Source: Synechococcus sp. KORDI-100 (GTDB lineage: Bacteria; Cyanobacteriota; Cyanobacteriia; PCC-6307; Cyanobiaceae). From it: a DNA stretch of 64,000 bases. Of the stretch, positions 7,854 through 35,759 are shown piece by piece. The position numbers and the translations under genes were made by a program. The DNA is taken from NCBI RefSeq assembly GCF_000737535.1, contig NZ_CP006269.1:1550001-1614000 (forward strand), in the 5' to 3' direction. The notes beneath the pieces were generated by a model. It was given only the letters and a program-made list of their open reading frames with translations, was not told the DNA's origin and searched no databases. How positions within the stretch are numbered: position 1 is the first letter of the stretch; every line of letters begins with the position of its first letter.

Positions 7854-8369
7854 TCACCAATCGCGATCCGGATCCTGGTCCCAGTCGTCCGTCTCCCGAT
7901 GGCTGTTCCGAGCCTCTTGCCCTGTGGAAGTGCCGCCTGAACGGGATTCCTGAGACCGGTCTTCTGCAGGGGATGTCTGCGGGCGTTGAATCACCCGATA
8001 GGGCACAGCCACGGTTGGTGCCGGATCGCGGACATCGCGTTCTGGCATCACCGGGGGTGGCGGTGCCACGGGTGCTGAAGCAGTGGGTTCAAAGATCACA
8101 GGATCGGGAGCTGCAGGTCGACCCATCGGCTGGTGGAGCGTGCGACGGAGCGGCGCGCGCCCTGGAATGAGAAGCAGAGCTGCCACTCCACTGAGGGATG
8201 CACCCGTCGCGGCGGCAATGGCGGTCCAGGCGCCGAGGGGCAACGGTGGCGATCGCCAGATCAGCACCTGAAGCTGAGTTGTGCCGCTCCGGTTCATGGC
8301 CGACAGCACAAGGACGGCAACAACCGGCAGCAGGCAGGGAAGCAGCAGAACCCGCCGGATCAGCGTCAT
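7854..8369 (-). CDS. small membrane protein with acidic, Pro-rich tail
   Basis: A 171-residue protein I cannot assign to a named family. It has two hydrophobic segments near residues 5-25 and 45-68 (VLLLPCLLPVVAVLVLSA; AWTAIAAATGASLSGVAALL), so both termini may be cytoplasmic or lumenal together, then about 100 polar residues that are Pro-rich and end in a strongly acidic DDWDQDPDRDW. The two-span layout resembles LapA-like (DUF1049) membrane proteins, but this is only topological. Its ATG overlaps the stop of ubiX (ATGA), so it is translationally coupled to ubiX. Confidence 0.65.
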   Translation of the reverse strand: MTLIRRVLLLPCLLPVVAVLVLSAMNRSGTTQLQVLIWRSPPLPLGAWTAIAAATGASLSGVAALLLIPGRAPLRRTLHQPMGRPAAPDPVIFEPTASAPVAPPPPVMPERDVRDPAPTVAVPYRVIQRPQTSPAEDRSQESRSGGTSTGQEARNSHRETDDWDQDPDRDW

Positions 8370-8974
8370 TGGCGTGGTCCTTTCCAGCGATCCAGTGGGG
8401 CAAGATCCTCATCGATCCCATCAAAGATGCGGATCACCAGAAAATCGACCATCTCAGCGAGGCTGGTGGGCCTTGTGTACCAGGCCGGAATCGGCGCAGC
8501 GATGCGGGCTCCTGCTTCAGCCAGTGCCGTGAGGTTGCGAAGATGAATGAGATTGAACGGCATCTCCCGAGGGACGATCAGCAGAGGGCGTGATTCCTTG
8601 AGATGAACATCGGCGCACCGTTCGATCAGATCAGAGGCCACCCCGGCACTGATGCGCCCCACTGTTCCCATGCTGCAGGGAAGAATCACCATCGCTTTTG
8701 AGCGGAAACTGCCGCTGGCGATAGCGGCGCTCTGGTCGTTCCATCGATGGCAGATCAGCTCGCCGGTTGAAACCTTGAGGTGCTCTCTCCAGAAGGCCTC
8801 CTGCCTCTGCGGCTCCACAGGAATCGACAGGCCCTGCTCTGCGCGGAACACCTCGTGGGCGCCGCGACTCAGCACGAGATGGATGGTGCGTTCACGCTGC
8901 AGCAACAACTGCAAGGCACGCTCAGCGAGAGGCTGAGCGGAGGCACCCGTCACCCCGAGGACGTAGGGCAGCAT
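8366..8974 (-). CDS. ubiX: flavin prenyltransferase UbiX
   Basis: A 202-residue UbiX/Pad1 enzyme that adds a dimethylallyl group to FMN to make prenyl-FMN, the cofactor of UbiD-type decarboxylases. The N-terminal GVTGASAQPLAERAL is the flavin-binding Rossmann loop, and VILPCSMGTVGRISAGVASDL (partial) and RPLLIVPREMPFN are the diagnostic C-terminal segments. In cyanobacteria the pathway served is plastoquinone head-group decarboxylation. It starts 2 bases after the upstream RNase R-like gene and overlaps the downstream membrane protein by four bases, so it sits mid-operon. Confidence 0.94.
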   Translation of the reverse strand: MLPYVLGVTGASAQPLAERALQLLLQRERTIHLVLSRGAHEVFRAEQGLSIPVEPQRQEAFWREHLKVSTGELICHRWNDQSAAIASGSFRSKAMVILPCSMGTVGRISAGVASDLIERCADVHLKESRPLLIVPREMPFNLIHLRNLTALAEAGARIAAPIPAWYTRPTSLAEMVDFLVIRIFDGIDEDLAPLDRWKGPRQ

Positions 8975-8976
8975 CG

Positions 8977-11319
8977 TCAGCCGTCGCTGAGGGTGACAGG
9001 AACGGCAGCCGGTTCTTGCTCGGCGGAGGGATCAACAACCGGCTCTGATGCCACTTCGAGGTCGATCTGGTTTCTGAGAACATCCACCTTGATCACCTTC
9101 ACGCGAACGGGATCTCCCAGCTGATAGGTGCGTCTGTTCTTTCGTCCGACCAATCGGCTCTGTCTGGATCGGTATTCGTACCAGTCGTCATTCAGGGAGC
9201 TGACATGAACCAGACCTTCAACGGCAGTGGGTCCAACCTCAACAAAAAATCCATAGCTCTGAACACCGCTGATCCGGCCATCAAGATCCTTGTTCAACAT
9301 CGGTTCTGCCGTCCTGGCCAGGACCATGGCGACCAGGTCCCTTTCCAACTCGAGAATCTGGCGGCGTCTCCCGTTCAGTTTCTGGATCAGACGATCCGTG
9401 CAGAGCTGCTGAAGCTTGTCCTCGATCGATCCGGCGAACAACGGCCAGGACACCTGACCGGCGCAGTCGCGGTTGCCCAGGGTGAGACGTTGCTTATGCC
9501 TGACGGTTGGCCGGTCCTTGCCGTCACTGAGAAGGGTCACGATGACCTGCTGGTTCGCCAGATCCACATACATCTGACCTGGGCAGCACCAGGGCACCAA
9601 GGGCTCTGAGCTGGATGGTTCGACAGCTGGCTCCGTGTCGGGCAGGGTCACGGTCGTCTCTCCCCCGTCCTGAGGTTCCGTCCTGCCATTGAGTGATCCG
9701 AAAAATCCGTCCTGCAAGGCGTGACTGAGCTGTTGCTCGAGCACCCTGCGTTGCGGAGCCTTTTCGATCAAAGCCATCAATTCAGAGGCCGAAGGGCTGC
9801 CCTCGTCATTCAGTTCCAGGGGCAGGTCCAGGGCGAGGGCCGTTTTGGCAACATCCGTGAGCGCAGTGTCGTCGGCTTGACCGCTGTGCAACTGAATACC
9901 AGGCAGCCGCAATGCGGTGGCGTGACGACCCCAGGCTCGGTTGGCCGCTCTCAGCAGCGGTTGGAGTAACGACTGGGGATCCGTTGCATCAAGGGCATCA
10001 AACCAGCGATGACGCAGTCCGGTGGGGTCGACCCAGATCAAATCACCCAGCGCATCGATCTCCGGAGTGTGAAGCTCCAGCTGAATCGCACCCCGGCGCT
10101 GCTCGCTCTCAAGCAAACAGCGGGCGCAGAAGAGCAGCGTTTCAAGTTGCCCGAGTTGATCCTTGATGGACTTCAGGGCCGCAGGAATGGTGCGTGCCTT
10201 CGGTTTGCGAGCGGCTAAGGCCTTCAACTGCGCCGGTCCGATGGTTGCGATCGGACGGATTGAACTGAGCGTGAAGGACCAGTCGCTGAGCTCTCCATTC
10301 GCGGTGACATCAAGGCGAACGCTGATGGCCTCAGCGGTTTCATCGACGTTGAACTGGCTGGCTTTGCTGAGCGGTTCGTTGAGCAGAGGCTGCCAGACCT
10401 CCCCGAGACAGATCGCCTCTGAGCGCTCCCTCAACCAGAGATCGAGACTGTTCCCGCAGCCGACCCGCTCGGCCACGGACGGCACGTGGACCCACAACCG
10501 CGATCCACCGGAATGGGGCTCGACATGGACGGCAGGCAGGAACGGTGCCTCATCGTGGTTCCAGCTGCGCAGCAACAGAGCGGGTTGATCAGTGAGGTCG
10601 GTTCTCCCCTTGGTGGCTGGTGATTTAGGCGACACTCTCGGAGCCGCGGGACGGGCCTGTAGTCCTGCTTTCGTGAGCAGAAGATCACGGTCTGAGGCTG
10701 CCCCGCCGCTGAGGGGGAGAGAGCGTGCCACATGGCCCTCGGCCGGGCACTGGGCCACGGGGTAGCGATCCACATGGATCTCGACCACCGAGGTTGGAGG
10801 ATCTTGTTGTAGGTGCTCAGCGTCCTCTCCGGGCAGCTGAATGCTGGTCAGCAGCCGATCATCGAGGGGTACAGCAACCAGCTGGTCGTCCTGCTGCTCC
10901 ACCTGGCCGAGCAGCGTTGTGGTCGCCCGCTCGAGAATGCACTGGACACCTCCTTCAGGCGAGCGACGGCGACCCCCCTCCCGGAGAATTCGCACCAGAA
11001 CCCTGTCTCCGTTCCAGGCGTGATTCAGCTGATGATCACGGATATAGATGTCTTCGCCGCCATCGTCACGGATCGCGAAGCAGAAGCCTTTGCTGCTGCA
11101 TCGCAGTCGGGCTTCGATCAGGTCTGGGTTATCCCCACGCAGCAACCCGTCACTGTCGCGGGACTCGATCACCCCCAAACGACCCAGAGCCGAGAGAGCC
11201 GTCTCCAGCGAGAGCTTGTCGTTTTTGTTGGTGAGTTTGAGGCTTTTCGCCAGAACAGCTGGTGACGTCGGTGTCTCAACAGACAGCTGATCCAGGACGT
11301 CGGCGACCGTGAATTTCAT
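8977..11319 (-). CDS. RNase R/VacB-like protein with degenerate RNB catalytic site
   Basis: A 780-residue protein with the full RNase R layout: an N-terminal winged helix (about residues 1-60), a cold-shock OB domain (about 66-140, with KGFCFAIRDDGGEDIYI and GDRVLVRILREGG), an RNB-like region (about 240-600) and a C-terminal S1 domain (about 675-760, DGRISGVQSYGFFVEVG). The RNB active site, normally DxxxxxDxDDA, is missing: where it should fall (residues 252-275) the sequence reads NHDEAPFLPAVHVEP, followed by a recognisable LWVHVPSVAERV in place of the usual GVHIADV. The essential magnesium-binding aspartates are therefore absent, so exonuclease activity is doubtful and an RNA-binding role is possible. 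An RNB protein with an intact site lies at 33.7-35.8 kb. Two bases separate it from ubiX. Confidence 0.85.
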   Translation of the reverse strand: MKFTVADVLDQLSVETPTSPAVLAKSLKLTNKNDKLSLETALSALGRLGVIESRDSDGLLRGDNPDLIEARLRCSSKGFCFAIRDDGGEDIYIRDHQLNHAWNGDRVLVRILREGGRRRSPEGGVQCILERATTTLLGQVEQQDDQLVAVPLDDRLLTSIQLPGEDAEHLQQDPPTSVVEIHVDRYPVAQCPAEGHVARSLPLSGGAASDRDLLLTKAGLQARPAAPRVSPKSPATKGRTDLTDQPALLLRSWNHDEAPFLPAVHVEPHSGGSRLWVHVPSVAERVGCGNSLDLWLRERSEAICLGEVWQPLLNEPLSKASQFNVDETAEAISVRLDVTANGELSDWSFTLSSIRPIATIGPAQLKALAARKPKARTIPAALKSIKDQLGQLETLLFCARCLLESEQRRGAIQLELHTPEIDALGDLIWVDPTGLRHRWFDALDATDPQSLLQPLLRAANRAWGRHATALRLPGIQLHSGQADDTALTDVAKTALALDLPLELNDEGSPSASELMALIEKAPQRRVLEQQLSHALQDGFFGSLNGRTEPQDGGETTVTLPDTEPAVEPSSSEPLVPWCCPGQMYVDLANQQVIVTLLSDGKDRPTVRHKQRLTLGNRDCAGQVSWPLFAGSIEDKLQQLCTDRLIQKLNGRRRQILELERDLVAMVLARTAEPMLNKDLDGRISGVQSYGFFVEVGPTAVEGLVHVSSLNDDWYEYRSRQSRLVGRKNRRTYQLGDPVRVKVIKVDVLRNQIDLEVASEPVVDPSAEQEPAAVPVTLSDG

Positions 11320-11428: not shown

Positions 11429-11716
11429 CTAAGAGTCGGGTTGTTCGCGATCGGGCCAGAGCAGCCGGATGCCGATCACCAAAAATCCGATTCCTGCAGC
11501 CAGTTGCAGCAGATCCGTTGGAATCACGGAGGCAATCGATCCGCCTGCCAGGGCACCAATCAGGCTGGCCACCACCAGAGCCGATGACGAACCCAGAAAC
11601 ACCGCCAGCGGACGATCGGAGGTGCCACTGAGCGCCACCGTGGCCAGCTGGGTCTTGTCGCCCAGTTCCGCCAGGAAAACAGCGACGAACGTGGACAGAA
11701 GCAAGGTGAGATCCAT
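11429..11716 (-). CDS. TMEM165/GDT1 family half-transporter (first of pair)
   Basis: A 95-residue membrane protein of the UPF0016 (TMEM165/GDT1) cation transporter family. It has one copy of the signature ELGDKTQLATVALS plus three hydrophobic segments. Full-length family members contain two such repeats; here each repeat is a separate gene, the other being immediately upstream (3-base gap), so the two products probably form a heterodimer. Known family members export Mn2+ or exchange Ca2+/H+; in cyanobacteria a GDT1 protein (Mnx) moves manganese into the thylakoid lumen or out of the cytosol. Manganese is the likeliest substrate by family, but this is inference. Confidence 0.9.
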   Translation of the reverse strand: MDLTLLLSTFVAVFLAELGDKTQLATVALSGTSDRPLAVFLGSSSALVVASLIGALAGGSIASVIPTDLLQLAAGIGFLVIGIRLLWPDREQPDS

Positions 11717-11719
11717 TGT

Positions 11720-12049
11720 TCAAGCTGCGGATGAAGCAAGAAAAAGAGAGCGGCCTGCCTGGGCTCCCAGCCAGAGGCCAAGTCCGATCATCAGAACGCC
11801 GGCCATCAATTGCAGCCGTTCCGGTGGCAGAACCTGCGCCAACCAGCGACCCACGAGCACGCCGACAAGGCTGGAGGCGATCAACGCTGTTGCTGCGCCG
11901 AGAAAGACCAACCAGGGAGCTCCGGACTGAGCGGACAGAAGCAGGGTGGCGAGCTGTGTCTTGTCACCCAGCTCCGCAACGAACACCGTTGTGAAGGTGC
12001 TGACGAGCACTGTCAGAAAAGCCGGTCGTTCATTCGAGCCGGATTGCAT
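11720..12049 (-). CDS. TMEM165/GDT1 family half-transporter (second of pair)
   Basis: A 109-residue partner of the preceding half-transporter, also with a single ELGDKTQLATLLLS signature and three hydrophobic segments. The Glu and Asp of the signature, which form the cation site, are kept in both halves. Its ATG shares one base with the stop codon of the upstream cysteine-cluster gene (TGATG), so translation is likely coupled. The two halves are clearly paralogous, consistent with tandem duplication without fusion. Confidence 0.9.
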   Translation of the reverse strand: MQSGSNERPAFLTVLVSTFTTVFVAELGDKTQLATLLLSAQSGAPWLVFLGAATALIASSLVGVLVGRWLAQVLPPERLQLMAGVLMIGLGLWLGAQAGRSLFLASSAA

Positions 12050-31979: not shown

Positions 31980-33760
31980 GGCCGAAGAGCTGCAAGGACT
32001 GGGATGTTGTGGTCTGGGGTGGTGGAACCGGTGGTGTGGCTGCCGCCGTCCAGGCCGCCCGCGCTGGCGTCAGGACTCTGTTGTTGACACCAGCCGGCTG
32101 GCTTGGAGGGATGCTGAGTGCCGCTGGCGTCAGTGCTCCGGATGGCCATGAATTGTCCTGCTGGCAGACAGGCTTCTGGGGAGCTCTCTTGAGAGATCTC
32201 GAAGGCAGCCTTGCAGAGGGGCTGGACCACAACTGGGTGAGCTGCTTCGGGTTCCGCCCATCACAGGCGGAGGCGATTCTGCAGCGATGGGTGTCGGAGG
32301 AGTCGCGTCTCCATTGGTGGTCTGATGTTGACCTGCTGGAGCTGGAGCGCCGTGCCGATCGCATTGTTTCGCTCACTGTCGCGCGTCGGACTGTTCCGCA
32401 TCGGGATGAATCCACCCGACTGGTGCCCAGGATTGTGATCGACGGGAGCGATCTCGGCGATTTGATGGCGGCTGCCGACGCCCCCTTCCGTTTCGGCTGG
32501 GAACCGGACACGCTCTGGTCGGAACCGAGTGCTCCAAGTTCGGAACGTCTCGCGCGGGAGCCGTTCTTCCGAGAGCAGCCGATTCAATCCCCAACCTGGG
32601 TGGTGATGGGCCAACTCGCGGCGGGCCCTGGGCCAGACACGCCGCTTGTGCCTCCCGAGCCCCCCTTTCAACGCTGCCTGGAGTCCTGTGGTCTGCGGCG
32701 CACGCTCACCTACGGACGACTTCCAGGGGGACTGGTGATGCTGAACTGGCCTCTCCATGGGAACGACTGGCATCAGGGTCTCGATCGCTGCATCAGCAGC
32801 GATCGACGTGAACGGCAGGATCTGGCCGCTGAGATGCAGGCTCACAGTCTTCGCTTCCTTCAGACCCTTTGTGTCAGCAGCGACGGATGGCTTCAGGCGG
32901 GGCACGCCTTCCCGGGCCGGGATCCCTGCCTGGCGCTGATGCCCTACTGGCGTGAAGGGCGTCGACTGGTCGGCCGCAACGTCGTCACGGAAAACGATCT
33001 CCTTCCGGTGGGGCCCAACCAGTCCCATGGCCCTCTACCGATGGATGTCCATGGTCGTTGCACCAGCATCGCTGTGGGGACCTATGCCAACGACCATCAC
33101 TACCCTGGAGAGGACTGGCCACTGGCTCCGAAGAGCATCCCCTGGGGAGGCCGCTGGACCGGAACACCCTTCTGCATTCCCTACGGCGCTCTGCTGGGGG
33201 AATCCGTGTCCAACCTGCTGATGGCTGATAAAGCGTTCAGCGTCAGCCACATGGCCAATGGCGCCACCAGGCTGCAGCCTTTGATCCTCAACATCGGGCA
33301 AGCCGCCGGTATGGCGGCGGCACTGTCGCTCCAGCACCAGTGCTCTCCCCTTGAACTGCCGGTCCAGGACCTGCAGAGCGCCCTTCTGAACGACCCCATC
33401 GCACCGGCTGCTGTGATGCCGATCTGGACCATCCCCGTCTGGCACGACGCGTGGAGGAGTTCACAACACGAGGCCCTGCACGATCCCACCAGCATGGAAA
33501 CGGCTTCCATGCAGGCGGTTCCAGCCTCCGACGCAGCACCGCTGCAGGAATCAGCCATTCAGGTCCAGGGGACCTTTCTGGCGAACTCGGAATCCGACTG
33601 GCAGCTGCAGACCTCGCAGAGGCCTCGACAGCTGATGACTCTCGAGCCGGGTGTCCGGAACCTCCTCACCCAGTGCAACAACGGCACTCAGGTTTCCGTC
33701 GTTGCTGCTGAGAACCCCTGGGGCCCCTGGTTGAGAGTTCTCAGGGCCACGATCATCTGA
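31976..33760 (+). CDS. FAD-dependent oxidoreductase (FAD_oxidored family)
   Basis: A 594-residue flavoprotein. The dinucleotide-binding motif GGGTGG at residues 15-20 (VVVWGGGTGGVAAAVQAARAG, partial) and TPAGWLGGMLSAAGVSAPDG place it in the FAD_oxidored group often described as xanthan-lyase-like. The C-terminal flavin contacts are GTPFCIPYGALLG, SHMANGATRLQPLILNIGQAAGMAAAL (partial). After about residue 470 there is a divergent tail of unknown role. No signal peptide or membrane span. The substrate is unknown. Its end overlaps the convergent RNB exonuclease by eight bases. Confidence 0.82.
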   Translation: MRPKSCKDWDVVVWGGGTGGVAAAVQAARAGVRTLLLTPAGWLGGMLSAAGVSAPDGHELSCWQTGFWGALLRDLEGSLAEGLDHNWVSCFGFRPSQAEAILQRWVSEESRLHWWSDVDLLELERRADRIVSLTVARRTVPHRDESTRLVPRIVIDGSDLGDLMAAADAPFRFGWEPDTLWSEPSAPSSERLAREPFFREQPIQSPTWVVMGQLAAGPGPDTPLVPPEPPFQRCLESCGLRRTLTYGRLPGGLVMLNWPLHGNDWHQGLDRCISSDRRERQDLAAEMQAHSLRFLQTLCVSSDGWLQAGHAFPGRDPCLALMPYWREGRRLVGRNVVTENDLLPVGPNQSHGPLPMDVHGRCTSIAVGTYANDHHYPGEDWPLAPKSIPWGGRWTGTPFCIPYGALLGESVSNLLMADKAFSVSHMANGATRLQPLILNIGQAAGMAAALSLQHQCSPLELPVQDLQSALLNDPIAPAAVMPIWTIPVWHDAWRSSQHEALHDPTSMETASMQAVPASDAAPLQESAIQVQGTFLANSESDWQLQTSQRPRQLMTLEPGVRNLLTQCNNGTQVSVVAAENPWGPWLRVLRATII

Positions 33761-35759
33761 TCAGCATCGCGCTTTCGCTGTCTTCAGGAACGATGATTTC
33801 AAGGGACATCGATTGACCCGGCACCGGGTCCTCAACCTCAAGGCGCCCGACGATGCCCATGGCCAGATCGTTGACATGCACCAACGCCAGATGGTCCTGT
33901 TGCCTCAACCAGCGGAGGAATTGCAGGCCCCATCTCTGACCGGCATGGGAGGCGAACCAAATCCGCTGCCAGTGTCGCTGATCCTCACGGCTGATCTGAA
34001 CGGCCTGGCGCATCGGCTGCTCGAGCTCATTGATGGCATCAGCGAGTTGGTCGTTGGTAAGCGGTGTCTGATCTTCAAGACTGGCGATCAGCTGTCGGTG
34101 GACCAACAGATCTGAATAGCGACGGATCGGTGATGTGGCCTGGACGTAGGCCTCAAGCCCAAGGCTGAAGTGGGGCAGGGGAGTCGTGCCTTGCACGCCA
34201 CGGCTGAGGCAGCGCTGCACGGCCGCATCACGGGCCGGTCCATCGGGGATCCGCTCAAGCTCCGTCTTGACGGGCAGCTCTGCCCTGGCCTGACTGCGGA
34301 ATGGCAGCGGAACCTGCTCAGCCTTGCCGATGCTGGCGACCACAGCTCCCATCAGCAGCATGGCCTCACTCACCATCCGCCGTGAAGCGGAGGAGTCGAT
34401 CACCTGCAGCTCCAGCTGACCGTCATGACGCCGGAAGCGTCCTTCCGGCCGATCGAAACCCACGGCACCTTGCCCATGACGCCAATGTGAACGTTGCTGG
34501 AGCAGGGTCGCCATCCGCGCCAAACCCTCATCTCCAGGAGGAGCCAGTTCGATCAGTTCGTCGGCATCCTCATAATTCAGGCGATAGCGGGGCTGAACCC
34601 AGCTTCGGGTGAGCCGGTGTTGTGCGATCGACCCATCAGGGTTGAGCAAGACGCCAACGCTCAACGCTGCACAACGCTTGCCCGAGCGCAGACTCAACAC
34701 ATCGGCCGCCAATGGCAGTGGCAGCATCGGCTGGCAGCCATCTGCCAGGTAGAGACTGGTCGCCCGGCGGCGAGCCTCCTGATCCAGGGGAGACCCCGGA
34801 GCGATCAGTCGCGCCGGATCCGCGATGTGAATCCAGATCCAGTCACCGTCCGCCCCTGGCTCAAGTGACACTGCGTCATCAATTTCACGGGTGGTGATGT
34901 CATCAACGGTGTATGTCGTCAGAGCTGTGAGGTCTGCACGGTGTTCGTCACCGGGACAGGGTTCTTCGGCTTTCGCGATCAGTTGTTCTGCCGCCTCGAT
35001 CTGATCCTGTGAGAAGCCGCCGGACCAGGCACTGCCTCGCAGGCCAAGGGGTCGATCAGGATCCAGCAGCTGGCGCGTGTAAAGCCAGCTGCGGATGTCC
35101 GATCGCTCTGAAGCGATCTTCAGCAGCCGGAGGGTGTCCTCCAGCCCGGGCACTGATGCCAGCGACATCGTGTTGTCACAGGCAAAATCAAGCAGTTGGT
35201 CCAGCCGTTCGGTCCAGCGTTTGGACAGGGCTGATCGCTCCTGATCTGACAGTGGTGAGGCGCGAAGCAGCCGTTCAAGGCCCTGTTGCTCAATCCTGGC
35301 CTGCTGTCGGTCGCGATGTCTGGCTTGTCGTTGACGACGGATCTCATCGCGACTGCGGGTCTGCAGATCGCGGTCCCGCCGAAGCCTGAACCAGGGCTGC
35401 GGTCCATGCAGCCAGTGCCAGACAGAGCCGAGTTCGATCAGCCCAACGTCGGCGAAAAGCAGTTCAGCAAGCTCCGCGACGGAAAGGCGAGGGAGGCGGT
35501 CGGAGTCCGTGCAATCAGGCTCGTCAGACATCAGCAGCCACCAGGCCGCTGCACTGTCCCGAGCTGTCGGCACGACCGACGTCGTCGTGTCCCGGTCTGG
35601 CAAGGGAGCCCGGGTCTGCGATTCGGTTAGCCCTTGAAGGCAGGTGATCTCCCGATTCGGAAGGTCAAGATCCTGGCGTGGAGGTGCGAGGGCGACTACC
35701 GCACGCGTTCCCTTCACGGCTTTCACCCGTCCGATCAAAGGTTGCCCTTTGTGGAGCAC
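33753..35759 (-). CDS. RNB-domain 3'-5' exoribonuclease (RNase II family)
   Basis: A 668-residue exonuclease with an intact active site: TTREIDDAVSLEP near residues 289-301 supplies the metal-binding aspartates, followed by IWIHIADPARLIAPGSPLD, RATSLYLADG and the MLPLPLAADVLSL segment. It degrades RNA processively from the 3' end. The first codon is GTG, and the frame remains open into the end of rpsR, so the start is not certain (the preceding codons read KPESIVG). A C-terminal S1-like part is short. It is downstream of rpmG and rpsR on the same strand, 47 bases after rpsR. Confidence 0.9.
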   Translation of the reverse strand: MLHKGQPLIGRVKAVKGTRAVVALAPPRQDLDLPNREITCLQGLTESQTRAPLPDRDTTTSVVPTARDSAAAWWLLMSDEPDCTDSDRLPRLSVAELAELLFADVGLIELGSVWHWLHGPQPWFRLRRDRDLQTRSRDEIRRQRQARHRDRQQARIEQQGLERLLRASPLSDQERSALSKRWTERLDQLLDFACDNTMSLASVPGLEDTLRLLKIASERSDIRSWLYTRQLLDPDRPLGLRGSAWSGGFSQDQIEAAEQLIAKAEEPCPGDEHRADLTALTTYTVDDITTREIDDAVSLEPGADGDWIWIHIADPARLIAPGSPLDQEARRRATSLYLADGCQPMLPLPLAADVLSLRSGKRCAALSVGVLLNPDGSIAQHRLTRSWVQPRYRLNYEDADELIELAPPGDEGLARMATLLQQRSHWRHGQGAVGFDRPEGRFRRHDGQLELQVIDSSASRRMVSEAMLLMGAVVASIGKAEQVPLPFRSQARAELPVKTELERIPDGPARDAAVQRCLSRGVQGTTPLPHFSLGLEAYVQATSPIRRYSDLLVHRQLIASLEDQTPLTNDQLADAINELEQPMRQAVQISREDQRHWQRIWFASHAGQRWGLQFLRWLRQQDHLALVHVNDLAMGIVGRLEVEDPVPGQSMSLEIIVPEDSESAMLIR

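Follow-up and report, generated by a model that had tools for sequence, protein, structure and literature searches.

Genes and domains at the locus

The window, that is, the whole stretch of 64,000 nucleotides from contig NZ_CP006269.1 of Synechococcus sp. KORDI-100 that was analyzed, carries a gene for an RNase R-like protein, followed by ubiX and preceded by two half-size GDT1 genes (Table 1). Translation of the open reading frame (8977-11319, minus strand) revealed no internal stops. Judged by its sequence, this gene is the picocyanobacterial orthologue of zam, encoding an old RNB-family pseudonuclease. A PF00773 search of the window's genome returned two genes, zam and rnb.

Table 1. Coordinates of zam, its parts, and related genes in the window
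Feature	Position	Strand	Basis or remark
zam gene	8977..11319 (stop codon included)	-	780 aa, ATG start
N-terminal winged-helix-like region, residues 1-68	11116..11319	-	Helices and strands of AlphaFold2 model (predicted); dN/dS 0.24
CSD1 (OB_RNB), residues 71-126	10942..11109	-	Pfam, 65.2 bits
Cys74, first of Zam pair	11098..11100	-	Aligned with Cys73 of PCC 7117 Zam
Cys80, second of Zam pair	11080..11082	-	Aligned with Cys79 of PCC 7117 Zam
RNB domain without catalytic residues, residues 239-598	9526..10605	-	PF00773, 132.9 bits (cut-off 29.3)
Pseudo-active site R251-P262 (RSWNHDEAPFLP), replacing D-x5-D-x-D-D	10534..10569	-	Alignment
Gln582, column of E. coli RNase II Arg500	9574..9576	-	Alignment
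S1 domain, residues 674-756	9052..9300	-	PF00575, 53.2 bits
ubiX (flavin prenyltransferase)	8366..8974	-	TIGR00421, 156 bits (cut-off 108.9); 2 bases after zam
Two adjacent half-size GDT1 (PF01169) cation/proton antiporter genes	11429-11716 and 11720-12049	-	Just 5′ of zam
rnb, RNB paralogue with intact active site	33753-35759	-	D/E/D/D and catalytic Arg

Pfam analysis combined with an AlphaFold2 model (mean pLDDT 78.2, pTM 0.76, 45 sequences) revealed a CSD-RNB-S1 architecture, in which CSD2 comes from the model only. The Pfam CSD2 match was marginal (26.5 bits, cut-off 26.2) and fell at residues 89-130, in the CSD1 region. The positions of CSD2 and of the winged helix are thus predicted from the model. 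An earlier, sequence-only reading of this DNA had described the winged helix, cold-shock, and S1 domains as intact, which is correct for CSD1 and S1 but not for the winged helix, since the latter is poorly conserved and gave no match in a Pfam scan of the 780-residue protein. The predicted fold is that of RNase R, the best structural match being 7dcy (RNase R; Z 36.2, rmsd 3.3, 614 residues aligned), with similar values for 5xgu_A (E. coli RNase R; Z 34.4, rmsd 3.7, 603 residues aligned).

The adjacency of zam and ubiX proposed in that reading was confirmed by the TIGR00421 match on the same strand, and it extends to other genomes. In family f1, which we read from kinship as marine Synechococcus plus Prochlorococcus, all 30 loci with 1.5-kb flanks, among them that of the window, have ubiX downstream of zam in the same orientation, as do 4 of 6 additional loci. 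Of 103 loci with flanks of up to 3 kb, including these 6, 36 carried ubiX in that position. It was absent from 63 others in which 1 kb or more of downstream sequence was available, and the remaining 4 had too short a flank. No arrangement of the two genes other than downstream on the same strand was seen in the 103 loci. UbiX serves quinone synthesis, making a redox link between the neighbors a tempting but speculative idea. On the other side of zam, every one of the 36 f1 loci for which flanks were available, that of the window among them, had a GDT1 match upstream on the same strand; the two GDT1 genes are alike, and the match cannot tell one from the other. An opposite-strand neighbor upstream of zam recurs in 66 of the 103 loci (for example, L178) and had no Pfam match in the single example scanned.

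Two Nostocaceae loci carried a third same-strand gene after zam-ubiX. In our reading, its product resembles the LapA-like protein of the window, which itself matched LapA below the cut-off. In Anabaena PCC 7120, alr1240-alr1241-alr1242 are reported to form one transcription unit, which has an antisense transcript that nitrogen deficiency induces (PMC10287535). The zam-ubiX order in Nostocaceae loci L295, L297, L209, L210, and L043 agrees with the alr1240-alr1242 unit.

Loss of the active site

Alignment with E. coli RNase R and RNase II placed R251, P259, L261, and P262 in the four metal-binding Asp columns. None of the four acids (D-x5-D/E-x-D-D) is present, so that the protein does not qualify as a catalytic RNase II/R, as expected from the sequence-only reading of an RNase R homologue without catalytic aspartates. 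In this region, NHDEAPFLPAVHVEP corresponds to residues 254-268 (10516-10560) and LWVHVPSVAERV begins at residue 275. The catalytic arginine of E. coli RNase II is Arg500. Its column contained Arg in 31 of 32 comparison proteins and a gap in the other, and the window protein has Gln.

Loss of the complete site extends across the sampled family. Aligned counting was applied to 201 unique full-length Zam-clade proteins, with identical or contained sequences merged and the products of one split gene (L068/L076) left out; alignment A2, without L186, covers 44 of the 80 named loci. The four acidic residues were retained in none of the 201 proteins: three were acidic in 4, two in 73, one in 70, and none in 54, and Asp was absent from all four columns in 179. 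All 32 comparison proteins (2 from E. coli, the other 30 Rnb-type) had D, D/E, D, D. The rows nearest to an intact site were L041, L052, and L211, with D-A-D-D (three of four Asp), and the first two also retained the Arg of the Arg500 column. An alignment-free count had given three matches for L041, L052, L084, and L092; we take those of L084 and L092 to be chance placements, and the aligned count was used instead. We also looked for a Zam with an intact site in families f50, f18, f26, and f25, and found none there or elsewhere in the 201 rows. The degree of active-site loss thus differs between lineages, with no full set anywhere in the Zam family in this sample. The survey of orthologues suggested by the sequence-only reading therefore recovered the same loss in marine picocyanobacteria, but the loss is not peculiar to them.

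Aspartates supplied from elsewhere could have compensated for the missing ones. Column conservation, the approach used here, revealed no family-wide, Zam-specific set of replacement acids in the RNB domain when the 201 proteins were compared with active relatives. The single Zam-wide acidic RNB column not common to active relatives was residue 513, located in an insert. The 48 f1 rows alone gave a few more acidic columns (residues 284, 301, 387, 393, and 506).

The rnb product retains D/E/D/D and the Arg; the sequence-only reading had noted REIDDA in this RNB protein at 33.7-35.8 kb. Picocyanobacterial Rnb is also diverged, with end branches of 1.35 and 2.05 for the proteins encoded at 33753-35759 (-) and L063, and the Rnb open frame of genome G378 is just 398 codons long. 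The presence of both zam and rnb in the window's genome, and likewise in 7/7 and 4/4 class genomes, is compatible with Zam serving the active Rnb as a decoy or as an inactive partner. We hold this to be extremely improbable, since no Zam-Rnb contact is known in the literature consulted, where the published partner is RNase E, and RNB enzymes are generally monomeric, a habit that speaks against such a partnership.

Assignment to the Zam family

In a quick tree of 74 rows, some on long branches, 42 of the 201 Zam rows, including the window protein, fell on one side of a branch with an SH-aLRT value of 99; the other side grouped 30 Rnb rows with RNase R and RNase II of E. coli, the sole noncyanobacterial RNB proteins in the tree. 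The window protein shares 259 of 726 aligned residues with Zam of Picosynechococcus sp. PCC 7117 (L200), a strain that we take to be a congener of PCC 7002. Zam of PCC 7117 has its Cys pair at positions 73 and 79, like the published PCC 7002 Zam. The CSD1 Cys pair was present in 195 of the 201 Zam proteins and absent from 6; it is missing in all four family f18 rows (L069, L240, L247, and L235). Two motifs separated Zam from the 32 comparison proteins, RCSSKG[FY]CF (187/201 versus 0/32) and [DN]DWYE[YF] (194/201 versus 0/32).

The family was described in 2022 (PMC9145284). According to the parts of that report drawn on here, Zam is a cyanobacterial member of the RNB family whose active site is degenerate and whose CSD1 carries two invariant cysteines that are redox active; sll1910 of Synechocystis and Zam of Synechococcus PCC 7002 are named members, and every cyanobacterial genome that the authors searched contained a Zam. 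The loss of the catalytic site is therefore real but already published. An earlier paper on Synechocystis rnb counted a single RNase II-family member in that organism (PMC3293843, in part); Zam apparently escaped notice then.

A replacement motif in picocyanobacteria

At the lost site, the 48 f1 rows were nearly uniform, with W253 in 48, P259 in 48, L261 in 47, and P262 in 45. Among the 153 other Zam rows, W253, L261, and P262 were found in none and P259 in 9. Only 7.5% of the columns of the f1 RNB core reached a conservation of at least 0.95, so that the W-x5-P-x-L-P replacement stands out. Tentatively, the dead site may have been rebuilt in f1 as a conserved element (W253, P259, L261, and P262) closing the RNA channel or docking a partner, which would make the Zam of this lineage a remodeled scaffold rather than a nuclease that has merely lost residues. 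On the same view, the primary task of Zam would be to control RNA turnover in response to redox state, outside photosynthesis. We regard this as possible, though doubtful.

Selective constraint

The median dN/dS of zam was 0.12 overall in 10 sequences from the same genus, and CSD1 (residues 69-130; 0.016) was the most conserved region, followed by S1 (residues 671-757; 0.053), the RNB core (0.17), the winged helix (0.24), and the tail (0.50); 23 to 36 of the 45 pairs were usable at dS values of 0 to 3 (29 to 36 for the overall, CSD1, S1, and RNB core values), with synonymous sites near saturation. CSD1 and S1 of Zam are thus under the strongest purifying selection, and the RNB domain is less constrained. 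The order is reversed in Rnb: of its three parts, the RNB domain has the lowest dN/dS (0.11, versus 0.26 for the N-terminal and 0.19 for the C-terminal part) in 11 same-genus sequences, one of them partial and all with the four acids. The pseudo-active-site stretch of Zam (residues 245-285) had the same dN/dS, 0.11, as the active-site stretch of Rnb, indicating that the site of Zam is not simply drifting.

These values bear on the possibility that zam is a decaying pseudogene, for which one could cite the long f1 stem branch (1.34 in the quick tree) and the f18 genome with zam in two open reading frames. The frame is open in all 10 same-genus sequences, and this, together with the dN/dS of 0.12 and the finding that 375 of the 388 class genomes have a match at Zam level, leads us to reject this reading, whose probability is virtually nil. 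The argument from a maintained frame against decay, made from the sequence alone, is thereby upheld.

Distribution and relation to photosynthesis

The Zam profile was matched by 387 of 388 class genomes: 375 at an E value of 1e-60 or better, 12 at the Rnb level only (1e-31 to 1e-40), and 1 without a match. These three counts were read by eye from the match table, and several of the 13 genomes are fragmented drafts. Two of the 13 are f58 genomes (G442 and G450, one of them a single contig), each of which has one RNB gene with an intact site. Zam can therefore be missing. In genome G241 (family f18), zam is present as two overlapping open reading frames, L068 and L076, of 281 and 475 codons; the split may be genuine or may stem from a sequencing error.

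Pigment and growth phenotypes have been published for zam. Deletion of the gene in PCC 7002 is reported to decrease phycocyanin synthesis and to change the PSI:PSII ratio (PMC9145284, in part), as expected if the regulatory task of Zam were confined to photosynthesis or phycobilisomes. Such a role would also fit the search of 60 genomes from other classes of the phylum, which gave no Zam match reaching CSD1 and 8 partial matches. Against it, Zam with its Cys pair was kept in 3/3 tested small g2 genomes without PBS-linker matches and in 4/4 tested Epithemia/Rhopalodia endosymbionts, in which PsaA/B were absent (two genomes) or in pieces with stops (two genomes) and no linker matches were found. 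Four other small f1 genomes that were tested had one PBS linker each, and the comparison genomes of L149 and L200 had both PBS linkers and PsaA/B. Retention of Zam without PBS linkers or intact PsaA/B argues against a role in photosynthesis alone, and we consider a dedicated regulator of this kind unlikely.

Proposed function

We favor, with moderate confidence, the view that Zam is a redox-gated scaffold that binds RNA or modulates RNase E and does no cutting itself. In the window protein, the CSDs and S1 would contact RNA, RNase E, or both, and formation of a disulfide between C74 and C80 would switch this contact; the switching may in turn couple RNA turnover to the redox state. In other species, the Cys pair is reported to be redox active and needed in vivo, and an Anabaena RNase II/R protein, identified as Zam by the authors, to bind RNase E (PMC9145284, in part). 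A review states that Alr1240 stimulates RNase E activity (PMC10989914), and RNase II was present in an Anabaena RNase E coprecipitate (PMC10783494), both as given in the parts of these sources used here. In the literature consulted, we found no experiment asking whether a picocyanobacterial Zam binds RNA or contacts RNase E. The best interpretation of this dead RNase R relative is a role in binding RNA, an option raised in the sequence-only reading, or in regulation.

Alr1240 is probably Zam, both because its transcription unit matches the run of zam, ubiX, and a third gene in two Nostocaceae loci and because of the identification made by the 2022 authors. The same review, in the part used here, states that Alr1240 of Anabaena PCC 7120 degrades unstructured RNA like RNase II (PMC10989914), and this contradicts a dead enzyme. 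Perhaps the activity was due to a host nuclease in the preparation. The report would be explained directly if Zam were still a nuclease with a noncanonical site, and the three D-A-D-D proteins, two of which also keep the Arg, may be active. For the family, we judge this explanation very unlikely: no Nostocaceae Zam row has, in our reading, more than two acidic residues among the four positions; the RNB domain has no family-wide replacement acids; and the Arg500 column is occupied by Gln in the window protein. In addition, purified PCC 7002 Zam is reported to have displayed neither nuclease nor RNA-binding activity, the data not being shown and the authors cautioning that the protein is aggregation-prone (PMC9145284, in part).

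The noncutting, redox-gated scaffold would be a pseudoenzyme that nearly all surveyed cyanobacteria have kept and that apparently links the turnover of RNA to redox conditions. To its published description, the present analysis adds a wide count of site loss, a near-fixed replacement motif in picocyanobacteria, and the retention of Zam in endosymbionts whose PsaA/B are missing or broken, and it sets out the contradiction over Alr1240 activity. The near-fixed W-x5-P-x-L-P motif, the widespread zam-ubiX adjacency, and the occurrence of Zam without PBS linkers or intact PsaA/B are absent from the literature consulted.

Comparison with known systems

The window protein agrees with the published Zam, as described in the parts of that report used here, in branch, domain order, degenerate site, CSD1 Cys columns, and a conservation concentrated on the OB-fold domains (PMC9145284). 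The f1 proteins differ from the published Zam by W-x5-P-x-L-P at the lost site and by the location of their gene 3′ of two half-size GDT1 genes. The PF00773 score of the window protein is also lower, with 133 bits versus 231 for PCC 7117, 241 for Snowella, and 279 to 308 in four Nostocaceae genomes.

The bacterial RNase R structures (5xgu from E. coli, 7dcy from M. genitalium, and 8cdu, presumably the B. subtilis enzyme) share their fold and domain order with the Zam model (Z 34-36). They possess the metal site and the catalytic Arg, both of which are absent from the window protein.

The closest functional parallel is yeast Ssd1 (7am1), a fungal RNB pseudonuclease (PMC8934651, PMC8097288), to which the Zam model could be superimposed with a Z value of 30.6 over 612 residues. 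According to the parts of these papers considered here, Ssd1, like Zam, combines an RNase II-family fold and conserved CSDs with lost active-site residues (PMC8934651), and it has a nonenzymatic RNA role with an alternative RNA site (PMC8934651, PMC8097288). Ssd1 itself descends from Dis3L2, has CSD1 and S1 insertions that block the funnel (PMC8934651, in part), and is described in these parts with no redox Cys pair. The likeness between Ssd1 and Zam is one of fold, the tree having been built without eukaryotic rows.
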